A stretch of DNA of 46,909 nt from a virus, in the IMG/VR virus record IMGVR_UViG_3300034170_000026, positions 1 through 46,909 of that record; one strand, given 5' to 3'. Both the position numbers and the translations under genes were made by a program. The number at the start of each line of letters is the position of its first letter. The first letter of the stretch is position 1. This document shows positions 5,901 through 45,414 of the stretch, piece after piece. The notes below the pieces were generated by a model, which saw only the letters and a program-made list of their open reading frames with translations, made no database searches and was not told where the DNA came from.

Positions 5901-6241
5901 AACCACACCTCCAATCTCTGCACGGCCAGCGCCAATCGCTCGCCATCTTCTCGACTCAACCGATCGCCACGCTCAAGCATCGACCTGGCAGCCTCCCAGA
6001 TCAGCCACTCGTGACGAATATCTTTGCTCTCTTTGTGCTCCTGCTCATGTCTGGTGATGCGATTTTCTGTCCAAACGAACGTTTCTCCGTCGATAAACGA
6101 GCCAAAAACACCGGTTTTCTGCATTTTCATCAAAAAACCATTACGCAGCTCATCGATCCGAAACTTCCGAAACTTGAGGTCTTCGGCGGTGATCGGAACC
6201 TTGATCCCGTACTGGGCGCGAATGGCTTCTTCGAATGTCAT
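5897..6241 (-). CDS. Early phage protein, 114 aa
   Basis: MTFEEAIRAQYGIKVPITAEDLKF precedes KTGVFGSFIDGETFVWTENR and a C-terminal IRHEWLIWEAARSMLERGD. The HEWLIWEAA motif is related to the W-x-A-W/W-x-A-A endings of neighbours. It is coupled by ATGA overlaps to the DUF3987 gene and to 5748-5900. Function unknown. Confidence 0.65.
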   Translation of the reverse strand: MTFEEAIRAQYGIKVPITAEDLKFRKFRIDELRNGFLMKMQKTGVFGSFIDGETFVWTENRITRHEQEHKESKDIRHEWLIWEAARSMLERGDRLSREDGERLALAVQRLEVWL

Positions 6242-7803
6242 GCGATGGCTACCTTCCCGGCTGCGTTGAGGATCAGTTGCCCGTTGAGCAGCATCGAGTC
6301 AATGCGTGCGCTCGCCATCTTGAACGAGGCTGGCATTGCCTTGAATGGCTTCCTGTTCTTCGCCTGGAGCGCCGCCGCACGTTTCTCCATCGGCGCCCTG
6401 GTCAGCACCTCGATAATGGTTTCTTCCTCGGCCTGAGTACCTGACTCGCCTGCGCTGTTCAGGATGCCCTTGATGTGATCGGCTAGGCCCAGCACCAGAT
6501 CAATCGATTCCTCAATGATCCACGTAGGAATTATCTCGGACACCTTGCAATCGTTCGACAGGCACTCGATCACGTAAATGTTTCCGGCGATCTTCATAAC
6601 GTGCGTTTCGATCTTTGCCAGCCACCCCATCATCACCATCTCGCCAGCCATCTTCAGGTCATAGAGATATGACTCAGTCGAGTTCTTGGCTTCGCGCAGG
6701 ATCCGATATCCCTCATCAGATGCTCTGATGCGAATAAGGTTTTCCGGATCCATGATCACCCTGGCGTCATCGTCAGCCGCGTATTGCTTCAGCACGCTAT
6801 CCGAGTACATGTCGACACACGCCGCACATGCACGCTCAAACGATTCCTTCTCGCTGCGCGTCGGGAAATGCCCCTCGTTGCGACGAAAGCCAATCGGATC
6901 GGGCTCGGCCAGGTAGATAAATCGCTCGGCCATCCCAGAGCCGCCAGAAGCCGCCAGGACGCGCTTGCTACTGCCAGGCTGGGCGATTATCACCACGCAG
7001 CCCTGAACCATCCCAGTGAACGCCTTACGACCAGCTCGCATGCCAGACACGTACTCGCTGGCGTAACCCTTCAGGATCAGCTCGTTGGTGCTGGAGAATG
7101 ACCCGGACTCAGGGAACAGCGATTGCAGACCAGACTGCTCGGCGCTGGACACGACAAAACGACCTTCGGAGCACCCGGAAAGGAAGCCGTCAATCGAAGC
7201 CGACGTACCATCAGATGTCTCGCTGAACGTGCGCTTAATGTGCTGCTCAGCCGGTATGTCCTTTTCCTTTAGTTCACGGTTAATCCCGCCGACTTTCTTG
7301 TTGTGCTGCGCCACGCCCAGGCGATAAGGCTTCATGCCGACATCGAGCAAGTAGCTCTTCATCATGGCGGGAGGCTGTTCGATGATCGTGTACATTCCCA
7401 GCGACACGCATGAATCCGTCGAGTACTGAGTGGCAAACGCCGTCGACACCGAGCAACTTGCTGACGCCAGCAAAGCAAAGAACGAACTCACTTCAGGGAA
7501 TTCAATCTTGTTATGCACGACCCGCGCCAACTTGCCTACCGTCGTGTTTGCGATTCGGTCACTCAGCTCAAGCAATGTCGGAATAAACTCGGCGTCATCA
7601 ACAACTTCCTTTTTCACACGCGGCTTATATTCGCGGCGCGGCTTAACGTCGACAGGAACAGGAATATCTTTTGTCGGCGCAACTTCAATGACGCCAATAT
7701 CAAACGATGATATTGAAAAGTCGTCGTCGTCCGGCATCACTGTCGAATACAACTCGACAGGAGGCATATCTATTGTTGGCGGATTGCTAATATCGATATC
7801 CAT
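6238..7803 (-). CDS. DUF3987 primase/helicase-associated protein
   Basis: About 521 aa from ATG 7803, which overlaps the upstream stop (TAATG). The body has the DUF3987 layout: a core starting near FFALLASASC, a conserved DGTSASIDGFLSG region, SSAEQSGLQSLF in the Walker-B-like position, and GMAERFIYLAEP. These proteins are linked to phage and plasmid replication. The expected P-loop near TIIEQPPAMMKSYLLDVG lacks a classical GK[ST], so ATP hydrolysis is uncertain. It is the largest gene of the leftward operon started at 8054-8082, consistent with a replication role alongside the primase. Confidence 0.7.
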   Translation of the reverse strand: MDIDISNPPTIDMPPVELYSTVMPDDDDFSISSFDIGVIEVAPTKDIPVPVDVKPRREYKPRVKKEVVDDAEFIPTLLELSDRIANTTVGKLARVVHNKIEFPEVSSFFALLASASCSVSTAFATQYSTDSCVSLGMYTIIEQPPAMMKSYLLDVGMKPYRLGVAQHNKKVGGINRELKEKDIPAEQHIKRTFSETSDGTSASIDGFLSGCSEGRFVVSSAEQSGLQSLFPESGSFSSTNELILKGYASEYVSGMRAGRKAFTGMVQGCVVIIAQPGSSKRVLAASGGSGMAERFIYLAEPDPIGFRRNEGHFPTRSEKESFERACAACVDMYSDSVLKQYAADDDARVIMDPENLIRIRASDEGYRILREAKNSTESYLYDLKMAGEMVMMGWLAKIETHVMKIAGNIYVIECLSNDCKVSEIIPTWIIEESIDLVLGLADHIKGILNSAGESGTQAEEETIIEVLTRAPMEKRAAALQAKNRKPFKAMPASFKMASARIDSMLLNGQLILNAAGKVAIA

Positions 7804-8012
7804 TATTCGATCCGCCAAATGCGATAGCCATCACCCTCTTTGCGGCGCGTCATACGAAAGCCGTTTTGATGCCATTTTGCGAAGGAGTAGGCCGCGCTCG
7901 CGCAGCATTCTACCTCGGCAAGCGAATCAAAATACCGGCTGCCACCAATCGGCCAGTCCTCAAATCGGTAGCGGTTCACCTTCGGAATTGGAACGCCTTC
8001 TTGTAAATCCAT
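7803..8012 (-). CDS. Small conserved phage protein (DUF7303-like)
   Basis: The start is placed at ATG 8012, preceded by GGAGAG; upstream in-frame codons are unlikely. The product MDLQEGVPIPKVNRYRFEDWPIGGSRYF...ASAAYSFAKWHQNGFRMTRRK ending in GYRIWRIE matches a common small phage family (P-x-x-R-Y-x-F...G-S-x-x-F...A-Y-x-x-x-K...R-x-W-R). First gene of the leftward replication operon. Function unknown. Confidence 0.65.
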   Translation of the reverse strand: MDLQEGVPIPKVNRYRFEDWPIGGSRYFDSLAEVECCASAAYSFAKWHQNGFRMTRRKEGDGYRIWRIE

Positions 8013-8053
8013 AGCAAATCTCTCCGGAGTCTTATGTTTCTTACGCAAACCGG

Positions 8054-8082
8054 ATTATGAGCACACAAGATGCGCAAGTCAA
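8054..8082 (-). promoter_or_regulatory. Leftward promoter of replication operon
   Basis: TTGACT (8082-8077), 17-base spacer, CATAAT (8059-8054), read leftward. A GAGCACA repeat (8059-8065) abuts the -10, so a protein binding these repeats could control this promoter. It drives the gene at 8012 and DUF3987. Confidence 0.6.
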
Positions 8083-8410
8083 ACTCTTTGTTCCCTTAGA
8101 GCCCTTAGATCTCTCCAGACTCTTTGCTCTCTTTGTGGTCCCCCTGTGCCCGTAAAAAGAGCACAGGTCTAGCCCACGGAATACGTGGCCTGTAGCGATT
8201 CTGTGCTCTTGTGCTCCTTTTTTTAAAAAAACACCCTTTTTCTATATGAATGATTTCCATTACCAATAACTACCCACTTTTTTGGATTTGCGAATGTGCG
8301 AATGACGGGCACAGGAGCACAATTTGATAGAAATCGTCTGGAGGCCACGTAATACAAGGCCTGGAGCTGTGCTCTTTGGACGGGCACAGCGAGAGCACAG
8401 CCGAGCACAG
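8059..8410. repeat. GAGCACA repeat array within imperfect inverted repeat
   Basis: Eight GAGCACA copies on either strand: 8059, 8159, 8202(-), 8210(-), 8315, 8368(-), 8393 and 8403. GGGCACAG variants lie near 8308 and 8382, with its complement near 8144. Segments 8118-8217 and 8314-8410 are imperfect inverted copies: both hold the repeats, a GGCCACGTA core and an ACGGGCACAG element. About 95 AT-rich bases separate them, including runs of T and A (8218-8231). Array, AT-rich spacer and position between divergent operons suggest a replication origin or master operator. No experiment or search supports this here. Confidence 0.6.
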
Positions 8411-8471
8411 CAATTCCTTACTCAGAAGTCAGGTTTTAGATTTAGGGCTGAAATCTATTTACTAGCGGGTG

Positions 8472-8500
8472 TTGACATGAATCAGTTTGTGGGCGATTAT
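8472..8500 (+). promoter_or_regulatory. Rightward promoter toward late/ncRNA region
   Basis: TTGACA (8472-8477), 17-base spacer ending GGGC, GATTAT (8495-8500). The GGGCGATTAT end is the same as in promoter 15649-15677. It points to the 45-aa gene and the long gene-free segment. Confidence 0.6.
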
Positions 8501-8788
8501 GGATTCGTGGTGAATGAGCAGGTCGATTTCTAGAGTCGCCCTGTCCATATCCGATGACTGCAAGGAACCAGATTTGCCGCGACATTGGATGAACTGGCAC
8601 GGCCCACCAATCAAAAGGGGTGCCAAACTTTAAACGCTCTTTAAATCTGAAGTTGTTATTCGCATGGTCATTGTTTCGAATTAGTTCGCCATAGAGTGCT
8701 AGGCTCTTAACGTGATCAATGGTAGATAAGTCTGCAGACAGCAGTGACCAGCCGAATAACAATTACACCAACCGACAGGAACAAGACC
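8501..8788. other. Gene-free stretch with hairpin potential
   Basis: No convincing gene on the plus strand. A minus-strand open frame across 8442-8762 lacks a normal start and ribosome site and runs back over the promoter. A hairpin pairs TGGCAC (near 8598) with GTGCCA (near 8627) around an internal CCC/GGG. It may be leader sequence of the rightward transcript. Confidence 0.4.
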
Positions 8789-8926
8789 ATGCACGAATCT
8801 GCAAAGTGTTATAACGGTGACATGCTTGTTGATGTGATGGATATGGGCGACCACTACTTGGTCAAATGCACAAACTCACTTTATCGCATCGACATCGCCA
8901 CAAATTCAGTAACTAGAATCCTGTAA
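8789..8926 (+). CDS. Small protein, 45 aa
   Basis: ATG 8789 is preceded by GACAGGAACAA, one base different from the shared leader of other genes. MHESAKCYNGDMLVDVMDMGDHYLVKCTNSLYR... ends IDIATNSVTRIL. It looks like a short all-beta protein. It stands alone between promoter 8472-8500 and the noncoding segment. Function unknown. Confidence 0.55.
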   Translation: MHESAKCYNGDMLVDVMDMGDHYLVKCTNSLYRIDIATNSVTRIL

Positions 8927-8929
8927 CCG

Positions 8930-9726
8930 AATAACCAACGCCGCCGCTACACCGTCAGCACATCGGTAAAACCTGCAAAGTTTGCTATGACTCCGCTCCA
9001 GCGGATAGCGCAATGTAGGAAATGTGTCAGCCAGACATATCATGTCCATTTATCAGTAGTCGCGCTGATGGCGAAAGAGCGATAGACTTGAGATGCGTGA
9101 TGTAGGACGCCAGCCCGCAGATGCGGAAATCGTCTTTATCGGAAAGACTGCCGGCATGAAAAAATACACCGTCTCCCCTTGCAATTTCGAAAGCCGGGAC
9201 GAAGCGGAGATAAGCGGTGGTAGTCTTTACCGATGCAGATGAATGCGCAGGCTGATGCGATAATCATGAGATGGAGAGATCACCCGGTGTAGCGATACGG
9301 TGCGGGTGTAGGGGCCGAGATGGGTATGGTTAGGTCCACGGTGATTTATAAAACGAGGCGACACCACCAGCGCGCCTATCCACTCGATGCCGGAGATCAG
9401 CACCGGCCATCTACATCACCCACCATCGACAATGCCAGCGCAGGACCTGAAATCCTGTTAGCTTGTGGTGGTAGCCATTAGGCGTCACGTGGGGAATGCA
9501 TACCGAAGTTCCACGCAAAGCTACAGGGTATGTCAGACGGCAGGGATCAGTTACCGCCGAGGGCTCGGAGCCTCGATAAAAATTCCGAGGCTGATTCGCC
9601 GCAAGGCAAAAAGAGCAGGATGGTTCAATTCCATCTCGTTGGCCGAGATCTGGTGAAGGATCCATGGTTCGAATCCATGGCGCGAGCAATCGTGATGACA
9701 GTACTCCAGTCGGTATGGAGAGGCCA
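8930..9726 (+). ncRNA. Candidate large structured noncoding RNA (~800 nt)
   Basis: No protein frame with a plausible start spans this segment; the open frames near its right end are short and poor. It is dense in self-complementary pieces: a compound stem at 8981-9012 (TCCGCT/AGCGGA plus GCTA/TAGC), hairpins 9034-9046, 9052-9069, 9132-9148 (GTCTTT/AAAGAC), 9281-9308 (CACCCG/CGGGTG with an internal GCGA loop), 9389-9407, 9443-9459 and 9569-9592. It includes tRNA-like T arms and ends in a strong terminator. Size, phage location, and tRNA association recall GOLLD or ROOL giant RNAs, but I cannot match a specific family. Confidence 0.45.
9595..9686 (+). tRNA. Degenerate tRNA-like element
   Basis: A perfect T arm (CATGG, loop TTCGAAT, CCATG at 9663-9679) follows a GATC hairpin like a long variable arm (9647-9662). 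A 5-bp stem with loop TTCAATT at 9619-9635 could be an anticodon arm (CAA). The acceptor pairs only partly (TTCGCCG with GCGCGAG), the D arm is poor, and base 37 would be T. It is not a standard tRNA; it may be decayed or part of the surrounding structured RNA. Confidence 0.3.
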
Positions 9727-44150: not shown

Positions 44151-44513
44151 TCAACCCTCAATAATGAAGCTGTCTGGATTCTGTTTTGCATACCAAGGAT
44201 CTGGAGCGCTCAAGAAATATTCATGGGCAATGCGATAAACCTCAATCAGGGCTAACCCATGGCGGCGAATATCATTTACTCCGCAGAAATGCGCATAACC
44301 TCCACTGTCGAACATAATGTTTGCGCAGCCGTCCCACTTTACAAAGCCAGCCGCGCTAAGTTCCGACTCGTCAATAATGGGTGTATTGGCCTCATCAACC
44401 TCCCAGCTAGAAATTTGACGAAGCTCAAACTCAAATGAATGCGAGGCAGAGCTGACAACTTGCAACTGGTAGTGATAAAGACCACCCTCTTCAATCAGAT
44501 AATGAATATCCAT
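44151..44513 (-). CDS. Early protein, 120 aa
   Basis: ATG 44513 has GGGAGTGCGAATA upstream inside the ParB gene's end. MDIHYLIEEGGLYHYQLQVVSSASHSFEFELRQISSWEVDEAN..., strand-rich, with FCGVNDIRRHGLALIEVYRIAHEYFL. Function unknown. Confidence 0.65.
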   Translation of the reverse strand: MDIHYLIEEGGLYHYQLQVVSSASHSFEFELRQISSWEVDEANTPIIDESELSAAGFVKWDGCANIMFDSGGYAHFCGVNDIRRHGLALIEVYRIAHEYFLSAPDPWYAKQNPDSFIIEG

Positions 44514-45414
44514 TATTCGCACTCCCGATCAGCTCAAGTTGTTTGTCAGCATCCAACGCCTTGCCAGCCTGCTGCATCTCGCGAACGGCCATGATTAGGT
44601 CGGCGAGTGCGTGAGAATTGACAGAAACCGATGCGGTATACGGTTGCTCGCAAGCCTCAATTATTACTGGATCAAGGCCATTAACCAGCACCACCGCATT
44701 CGAAACCACCATATCCACACGCGGGCGACTCGGAGCCTTGGGCGCCACAACCTTAGCAGTCACCTTGGCCTTACCCTGCTCAGCAGCCACTTCAATGCGG
44801 CGCTCAAGTTCTTTGGGGGCTTCGGTGCCGAACTCGCGAATCAGCTTGACGGCCTCTGTCGGCGAGATGGTTTTGTTTTCAATTGCATCGTGAACTTCAG
44901 GGCTGCCACCAGCGAGAAGAATAGACTGATCGACGTGCGCAAGAGACATGCCAGCTTCGGCGGCGATCTCTTGACGAGTAGCTCCGATCACGTCACGCGC
45001 ATGGATATAGAGGCGCCCAAGCTCAATCTGACTCAGCTTCAGCTGCTTGTTCGAACTAGCAATCCGCATCTTCCGCTGAAACGGTGTCCCCTCGAACTTG
45101 ACAGCCGAGATGTAGTTGTAGAATTCAGGCTCAATGTCAGCGTATTGAAGATATGCAGCAAACCGGCAATGACCGTCTACAAGCTCGATGTCGCCGGTTT
45201 CAGGGTTAACCCAGACCTCGATAGCTGGAATAGGCAGATTCGCCACCAGCGCCCCAAGCAGGCTGGCAATGTGTTCGCGCAGCTCGTCGTCCTGGGTGCG
45301 AACGTTGAAGCCGTCCACGATCTTGATATTGCGGATGTTGACGCGGATCGAGTCGCCGCGTTTGGCTGCCTGGTTGTTTTTGTCGGATGCAATATTATTC
45401 AAAGTGTAAGCCAT
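44491..45414 (-). CDS. ParB/sulfiredoxin-like protein
   Basis: A 307-aa protein. ParB-like N-domain: FNVRTQDDELREHIASLL...IPAIEVWVNPETGDIELVDGHCRFAAY (the GHxRF box). Then an HTH region: TRQEIAAEAGMSLAHVDQSILLA. Tail is Val/Ala/Lys-rich. Such phage proteins may have nucleases or DNA-binding roles, not necessarily partition; no ParA partner is visible. Leader GACAGGAGCT. Confidence 0.8.
   Translation of the reverse strand: MAYTLNNIASDKNNQAAKRGDSIRVNIRNIKIVDGFNVRTQDDELREHIASLLGALVANLPIPAIEVWVNPETGDIELVDGHCRFAAYLQYADIEPEFYNYISAVKFEGTPFQRKMRIASSNKQLKLSQIELGRLYIHARDVIGATRQEIAAEAGMSLAHVDQSILLAGGSPEVHDAIENKTISPTEAVKLIREFGTEAPKELERRIEVAAEQGKAKVTAKVVAPKAPSRPRVDMVVSNAVVLVNGLDPVIIEACEQPYTASVSVNSHALADLIMAVREMQQAGKALDADKQLELIGSANNGYSLSD

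Follow-up and report, generated by a model that had tools for sequence, protein, structure and literature searches.

The window analysed here is the whole 46,909-nucleotide stretch of the IMG/VR virus record IMGVR_UViG_3300034170_000026. Its two ends share 126 identical bases, indicative of a complete, circularly permuted phage map, and terminase, portal and tail genes are all encoded within it. Since the terminase large subunit is 92% identical to that of the Pseudomonas syringae phages Orimi01 and Orisa01-03, the host is likely to be Pseudomonas-like. A leftward replication operon, which encodes a helicase of the DUF3987 family, is separated from the rightward terminase and structural genes by non-coding DNA that carries an array of 7-base words on both strands, and this array is the subject of our study. 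The DUF3987 domain is found in several hundred sequenced phages and is poorly characterised; in the literature it has been used as a primase marker of the Vibrio satellites known as PICMIs.

A sequence-only reading of the window had claimed eight copies of GAGCACA on both strands of this region, and the positions bear this out. Eight of the nine genome copies lie inside 8059-8409, at 8059, 8159, 8315, 8393 and 8403 on the plus strand and at 8202, 8210 and 8368 on the minus strand. The variant GGGCACA, missed by that reading, places three of its four genome copies in the array (8145 on the minus strand, 8307 and 8382 on the plus strand), and of the 13 genome copies of GRGCACA (hereafter the A word) 11 are in the array. 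The genome total of GAGCACA is not above chance (9 versus a chance mean of 8.3). In 300 simulated genomes having the same dinucleotide steps as the window, the maximum of GRGCACA per 400 bases is 4, versus 11 here. The signal is clustering, not the genome total. We detected no known RNA families in the window, and a DNA search of a phage collection with the array region returned only two short, unrelated matches. The A words fall into two mirrored sets on either side of an AT-rich core:

8145-8216: half-array 1, with A words at 8145 (minus strand, GGGCACA), 8159 (plus), 8202 (minus) and 8210 (minus) and a B box between the converging words
8166-8201: B box of half-array 1, a partial dyad CAGGCCACG...CGTGGGCT
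8217-8306: AT-rich core between the half-arrays, the proposed melting site
8307-8409: half-array 2, mirroring half-array 1, with A words at 8307 (plus, GGGCACA), 8315 (plus), 8368 (minus), 8382 (plus, GGGCACA), 8393 (plus) and 8403 (plus)
8322-8367: B box of half-array 2, CTGGAGGCCACGTAATACAAGGCCTGGAG, with a spacer longer by one helical turn

Read along the leftward operon, the order is three leftward words, one rightward word, a B box and two leftward words, then the AT-rich core, followed by two rightward words, the second B box, one leftward and one rightward word, and lastly a separate site at the promoter. The converging words start 43 bases apart in half-array 1 and 53 bases apart in half-array 2, and a 14-base spacing is present in half-array 1. 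The core is 69% AT, versus 50% in the surrounding 2 kb. Alignment of 8134-8218 with 8313-8399 gives 76% identity, and ungapped 58-base arms give 79%, in agreement with the earlier description of two imperfect inverted copies. The B box of half-array 1 keeps its position, and part of its sequence, where the A word has changed. We also asked whether the B box might form a hairpin whose stems are kept by compensatory changes. Such stems are perfect in a few genomes (L196, L087 and L197), and the mean stem of 4.9 versus 3.9 in shuffled sequences counts related rows repeatedly; because the stems are weak in most genomes, we retain the B box only as a conserved partial dyad.

The sole GAGCACA outside the region, at 6034, lies in coding sequence, and the 21-base stretch around it (6021-6041) is 95% identical to 8121-8141 at the array edge.

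We surveyed DUF3987 loci for arrays, requiring that one 7-mer recur six or more times in 450 bases, no more than about 1.1 kb away from the DUF3987 gene. Arrays were present at 30 of 37 viral loci versus 6 of 743 background windows, and at 6 of 12 chromosomal loci versus 1 of 213 background windows; under the same rule none was found in 36 T1-like relatives. In nine IMG/VR contigs whose DUF3987 proteins are 81-99% identical to that of the window, the array is in place and its A sites stand out as conserved alignment blocks. Pseudomonas phage Amjad_SA, with a DUF3987 protein of only 41% identity, has 11 copies of GAGCACA in the same place and in mirrored order. The array persists where terminase or ParB differ, and no array was found in Orimi01, which shares the terminase and has a different replication module. 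It lies 3' of a prim-pol-DUF3987 gene in L195 and 3' of DUF3987 in L196, L160 and others; in L195 and L160 the DUF3987 domain is part of one long reading frame, which in L195 also holds Prim-Pol and PriCT_2 domains. Judged by its linkage to the DUF3987 gene and its absence from the T1-like relatives, the array belongs to the replication module and not to the late genes.

Across these loci the word is replaced and the geometry is kept. IMG/VR contigs of more distant DUF3987 phages use GGGAACA, GCMCGYA, GCACTCA, AGACTCA or CCCCTCA, and Vibrio and Escherichia DUF3987 phages use ATTACAC, ATGACAC or CCCCACG. GAGCACA carriers appear in three separate places of the helicase tree, which could reflect either retention of an old word or its repeated gain. 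Spacings were measured in 18 arrays, with diverging pairs only where present. The starts of diverging words are separated by 14 (13-15) bases; for converging words the distance is 43 bases in 16 of 28 cases, 53 in six, 44 in two and 52-56 in four. An element in the Halomonas chromosome (L160) has the same spacing as the phage arrays. The two common converging spacings differ by ten bases, or one helical turn, which suggests that proteins assemble along a single face of the helix. The cores are AT-richer than their own loci, clearly so in most cases and slightly in L195 (48 versus 46%).

We read the region as a phage replication origin working like the rep-ori of phage-inducible chromosomal islands (PICIs) and Staphylococcus aureus pathogenicity islands (SaPIs), with words read by DUF3987, most likely through its C-terminal tail, and with two opposed hexamers, and we give this reading a probability of about 0.72. 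It is supported by the facts that the array stays with the DUF3987 gene, that two sets of sites flank an AT-rich core and that the geometry is fixed. The proteins concerned are encoded next to the array:

6238-7818, minus strand: DUF3987 helicase of 526 residues, the proposed initiator (PF13148, 3e-13; phrog_2373, 3e-36), with a possible MCM-like AAA+ core
6241-6456, minus strand: C-terminal winged-helix-like tail of the helicase (residues 455-526, a low-confidence prediction), the proposed reader of the A word
7803-8012, minus strand: small DUF7303-like protein, 69 residues from its ATG, overlapping the start of the helicase gene, a rival word reader

Among the proposed binders, we infer that DUF3987 is the best candidate for the reader, as the factor common to the arrays. 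All 50 best VIA-align rows for its structural model are MCM proteins (Z 11.5-13.1, residues 90-456), at a model pLDDT of 53 and a Foldseek E value of 0.03. The last approximately 65 residues are predicted, with low confidence, to form a helix-helix-helix-strand-strand arrangement, and residue 503 in the third helix tracks the word class. In PrimQH primases, DUF3987 ATPases sit between primase domains and C-terminal winged-helix domains (PMC5862659), and SaPI Rep is reported to read its iterons through its own C-terminal domain (PMC7581432).

Initiation might then proceed as follows. The winged-helix-like tail would bind the A words, and two helicase assemblies, one per half-array, would be placed in opposite orientation across the AT-rich core, each half-array having its B box flanked by converging A sites at a spacing of 43 or 53 bases. 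The core would melt, the helicases would be loaded and forks would depart both ways. The A site over the leftward promoter could in addition let the initiator repress its own operon as feedback.

The comparison with PICI and SaPI rep-ori is one of analogy, in which the window array would work like these origins without being a PICI member. In both, the words differ between elements, and the window offers 11 GRGCACA copies in two mirrored sets about a core of 69% AT. Another shared trait is seen in L195, L196 and the chromosomal relatives, where the array follows the (primase-)helicase gene directly on its 3' side, the arrangement of PICIs. The differences are that the window is a whole phage with structural genes, whereas a PICI is an integrated satellite without its own, that its helicase is of the DUF3987 type, whereas PICI Rep is of the DUF927 or D5 type, and that it encodes a separate CHC2-zinc-finger primase-like protein elsewhere; the fixed 14/43/53 spacing and the B box are features described here for the DUF3987 arrays. 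One study holds that the PICI origin layout occurs in no other known bacterial replicon (PMC6092414). If our reading is right, this layout would extend to whole phages. The alpha protein of satellite P4 is likewise a helicase initiator and reads repeated short sites, present in both orientations, close to an AT-rich stretch; it differs as a primase-helicase fusion of another family, and P4 needs two separated sites (ori and crr). This likeness to the window is one of layout and function. Alpha and its ori site are named in the study that described the PICI layout (PMC6092414).

The sequence-only reading had proposed an iteron-type origin. The comparison across genomes gives good support to an origin, though not one of the classical iteron-plasmid type, as the array consists of 7-base words that occur on either strand and in mirror order. 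Iteron plasmids and lambda ori, read by a Rep or O protein, share with the window repeated initiator sites and an AT-rich region near the initiator gene; their direct repeats are longer, and in lambda lie inside the O gene, whereas the words of the window occur in both orientations and between genes. We found no direct repeat family of at least 12 bases in 7900-8600, where iteron plasmids would have tandem direct repeats of about 17-22 bases, and no DnaA box (TTWTNCACA) between 7619 and 20153. We found no description of a DUF3987 origin in the open-access library consulted. If correctly read, the region offers the DUF3987 group, apart from its T1-like members, an origin that can be tested, together with about ten natural word-protein pairs at constant geometry for decoding DNA recognition by an initiator helicase.

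An array of similar style was found by pattern in L023 (6766-6985), where about twelve ATGTGCCCC words (the GGGGCACAT array) lie just 3' of a CHC2-type primase-helicase gene and next to an integrase-like gene. It appears to be a parallel origin in an unrelated element, and was left out of the counts as such. In Amjad_SA (L028), 17 copies of AGGTTGGC occupy 450 bases at about 1650-2100, within an annotated gene.

Base composition is in line with an origin in most of the genomes examined: the detrended GC-skew minimum of the window lies 10 bases away from the centre of its array, and the distance is at most 270 bases in G001, G003, G005, G007 and P23. Several observations weigh against the origin reading. 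The GC-skew agreement covers six of eight genomes and fails in Amjad_SA and in Vibrio phage 191E37-1, and it is confounded, because gene direction changes at the same place through divergent transcription. Seven of the 37 viral loci are below the survey threshold, and several of the loci in the survey share a lineage, which makes the sample phylogenetically non-independent. The window array is 5' of the helicase gene and of the small DUF7303-like gene, unlike in PICIs, where the origin is immediately 3' of the initiator gene. The AlphaFold2 (AF2) model of DUF3987 is poor (pLDDT 53) and worse in the tail, so that placing the tail is not possible, and residue 503 is a lead, not proof, because it is the best of 520 columns, chosen after the fact. 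In 191E37-1 (L077), the GC-skew minimum falls on a second ATGACAC array (9192-9528, at 9.2 kb), which on the circular map is some 11 kb distant from the first. This second array neighbours two winged-helix genes and may be either a second origin or a regulatory copy.

Another protein could read the same origin. The small DUF7303-like protein encoded just upstream of the helicase might bind the words and recruit the helicase, a division of labour as between lambda O and P, which we consider unlikely. DUF7303 matches were obtained for 7 of 18 relatives of this protein (best 6e-5), the window's own copy having none. Its gene is adjacent and overlapping in the window family and in other phage relatives, and its AF2 model (pLDDT 82) has a confident beta-alpha-beta-beta fold with a basic beta hairpin; fold searches with it gave nothing above background. 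Residues 47-48 tend to track the word, being W/H/Y-H with GAGCACA, even in the distant Amjad_SA and L087, and T-H, R-H, K-K, R-R or R-T with other words. This residue code seemed strong at first and was weakened by L192, which combines GAGCACA with T-H, though mixed with GAGAACA, and by the single-frame primase-helicase genes: L195 and L160 have arrays and one long DUF3987 frame, with no small gene between. In pYD38-A, inspection of the sequence puts an AP2-like protein in the place of the small gene, beside a degenerate array. Absence of the small protein as judged by the family model is weak evidence, because that model also missed the Vibrio small proteins. ParB was a further proposed binder, with the array as a centromere-like parS site or a ParB-run switch. 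The phage does encode a ParB-like protein, and ParB identity at first tracked the word (at least 58% where the word was shared, 34% where it differed). Nevertheless, AGACTCA or GCCCGCA is carried by contigs whose ParB is 70-73% identical to that of the window, the Vibrio array phages are without the phrog_1033 ParB, and FoX1 and Persinger, which encode ParB but lack DUF3987, show no array in the roughly four fifths of their genomes that were scanned. Since the word differs among contigs with similar ParB, and neither the presence of the array nor its word follows ParB across the genomes compared, we reject ParB as the binder, and the parS reading is hardly credible.

Readings without a role in the start of replication must also be weighed. 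The features that bear on transcription are:

8054-8082, minus strand: leftward promoter-like site TTGACT-17-CATAAT, with TTGAC conserved in relatives
8059-8065, plus strand: separate A site, sharing one base with the -10 of the leftward promoter-like site
8472-8500, plus strand: rightward promoter-like site TTGACA-17-GATTAT, with TTGAC conserved in relatives

The array thus stands between two divergent promoter-like sites and might be an operator for them, serving an early-late switch, a reading we regard as decidedly improbable. That one copy abuts the leftward -10, as had been claimed, holds to the extent of the one-base overlap at 8059-8065, a site conserved with shifts in most relatives; the promoter-like site itself is no rarer than chance, as two sites at this score occur in the region versus 2.1 expected, and what speaks for both is solely the conservation of TTGAC. 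The second array of 191E37-1, of that phage's own word and beside winged-helix genes, would also fit an operator. Against this, the array tracks DUF3987 whatever its other neighbour and in other elements lies 3' of the helicase, off the early-late divergence, so a master operator coupling early-late switching is unsupported as a general function; two mirrored sets around an AT-rich core would also exceed what an operator needs. Autoregulation would be consistent with the single site that members of the window family have at the leftward promoter, and 8059-8065 is a possible autoregulatory operator of the replication operon, although the site is shifted in L008-L010 and absent in L011 and L012. 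A packaging (pac or cos) site read by the terminase small subunit would agree with where the array lies in the window family and in Amjad_SA, with replication genes on one side and terminase genes on the other. The window's terminase small subunit, however, has no detectable relative in G001, yet the DUF3987 protein of G001 is 99% identical and its array the same, while Orimi01, despite its 92% identical terminase large subunit, has no array. The small subunit is not conserved among array carriers, and we set this very remote reading aside.

Returning to the replication origin read by DUF3987, we put forward a broader proposal, at somewhat less than even odds. DUF3987 elements may be built on a common, conserved origin chassis, made up of the mirrored half-arrays, an AT-rich core, the B box and the 14/43/53 spacing. 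The 7-base word and the residues that recognise it would be the only parts to be swapped, and the phages, satellites and chromosomal elements concerned would have origins incompatible with one another. Such an origin code would make the origin and the specificity of its initiator readable from sequence, and relatives or satellites sharing a cell could escape or steal each other's initiators.

Two further observations concern the rest of the window. The ParB-like protein rejected above as the binder is encoded at full length at 44491-45414. The approximately 1.1 kb at 8505-9660 has little coding sequence and no tRNA gene in the window; the matching stretch carries tRNA genes for Trp in L007, Ser and Asp in L010 and Thr in L011. 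A conserved GTAATTGTTATTCG block lies close to every one of them, and the stretch looks like a spot of tRNA gene exchange.
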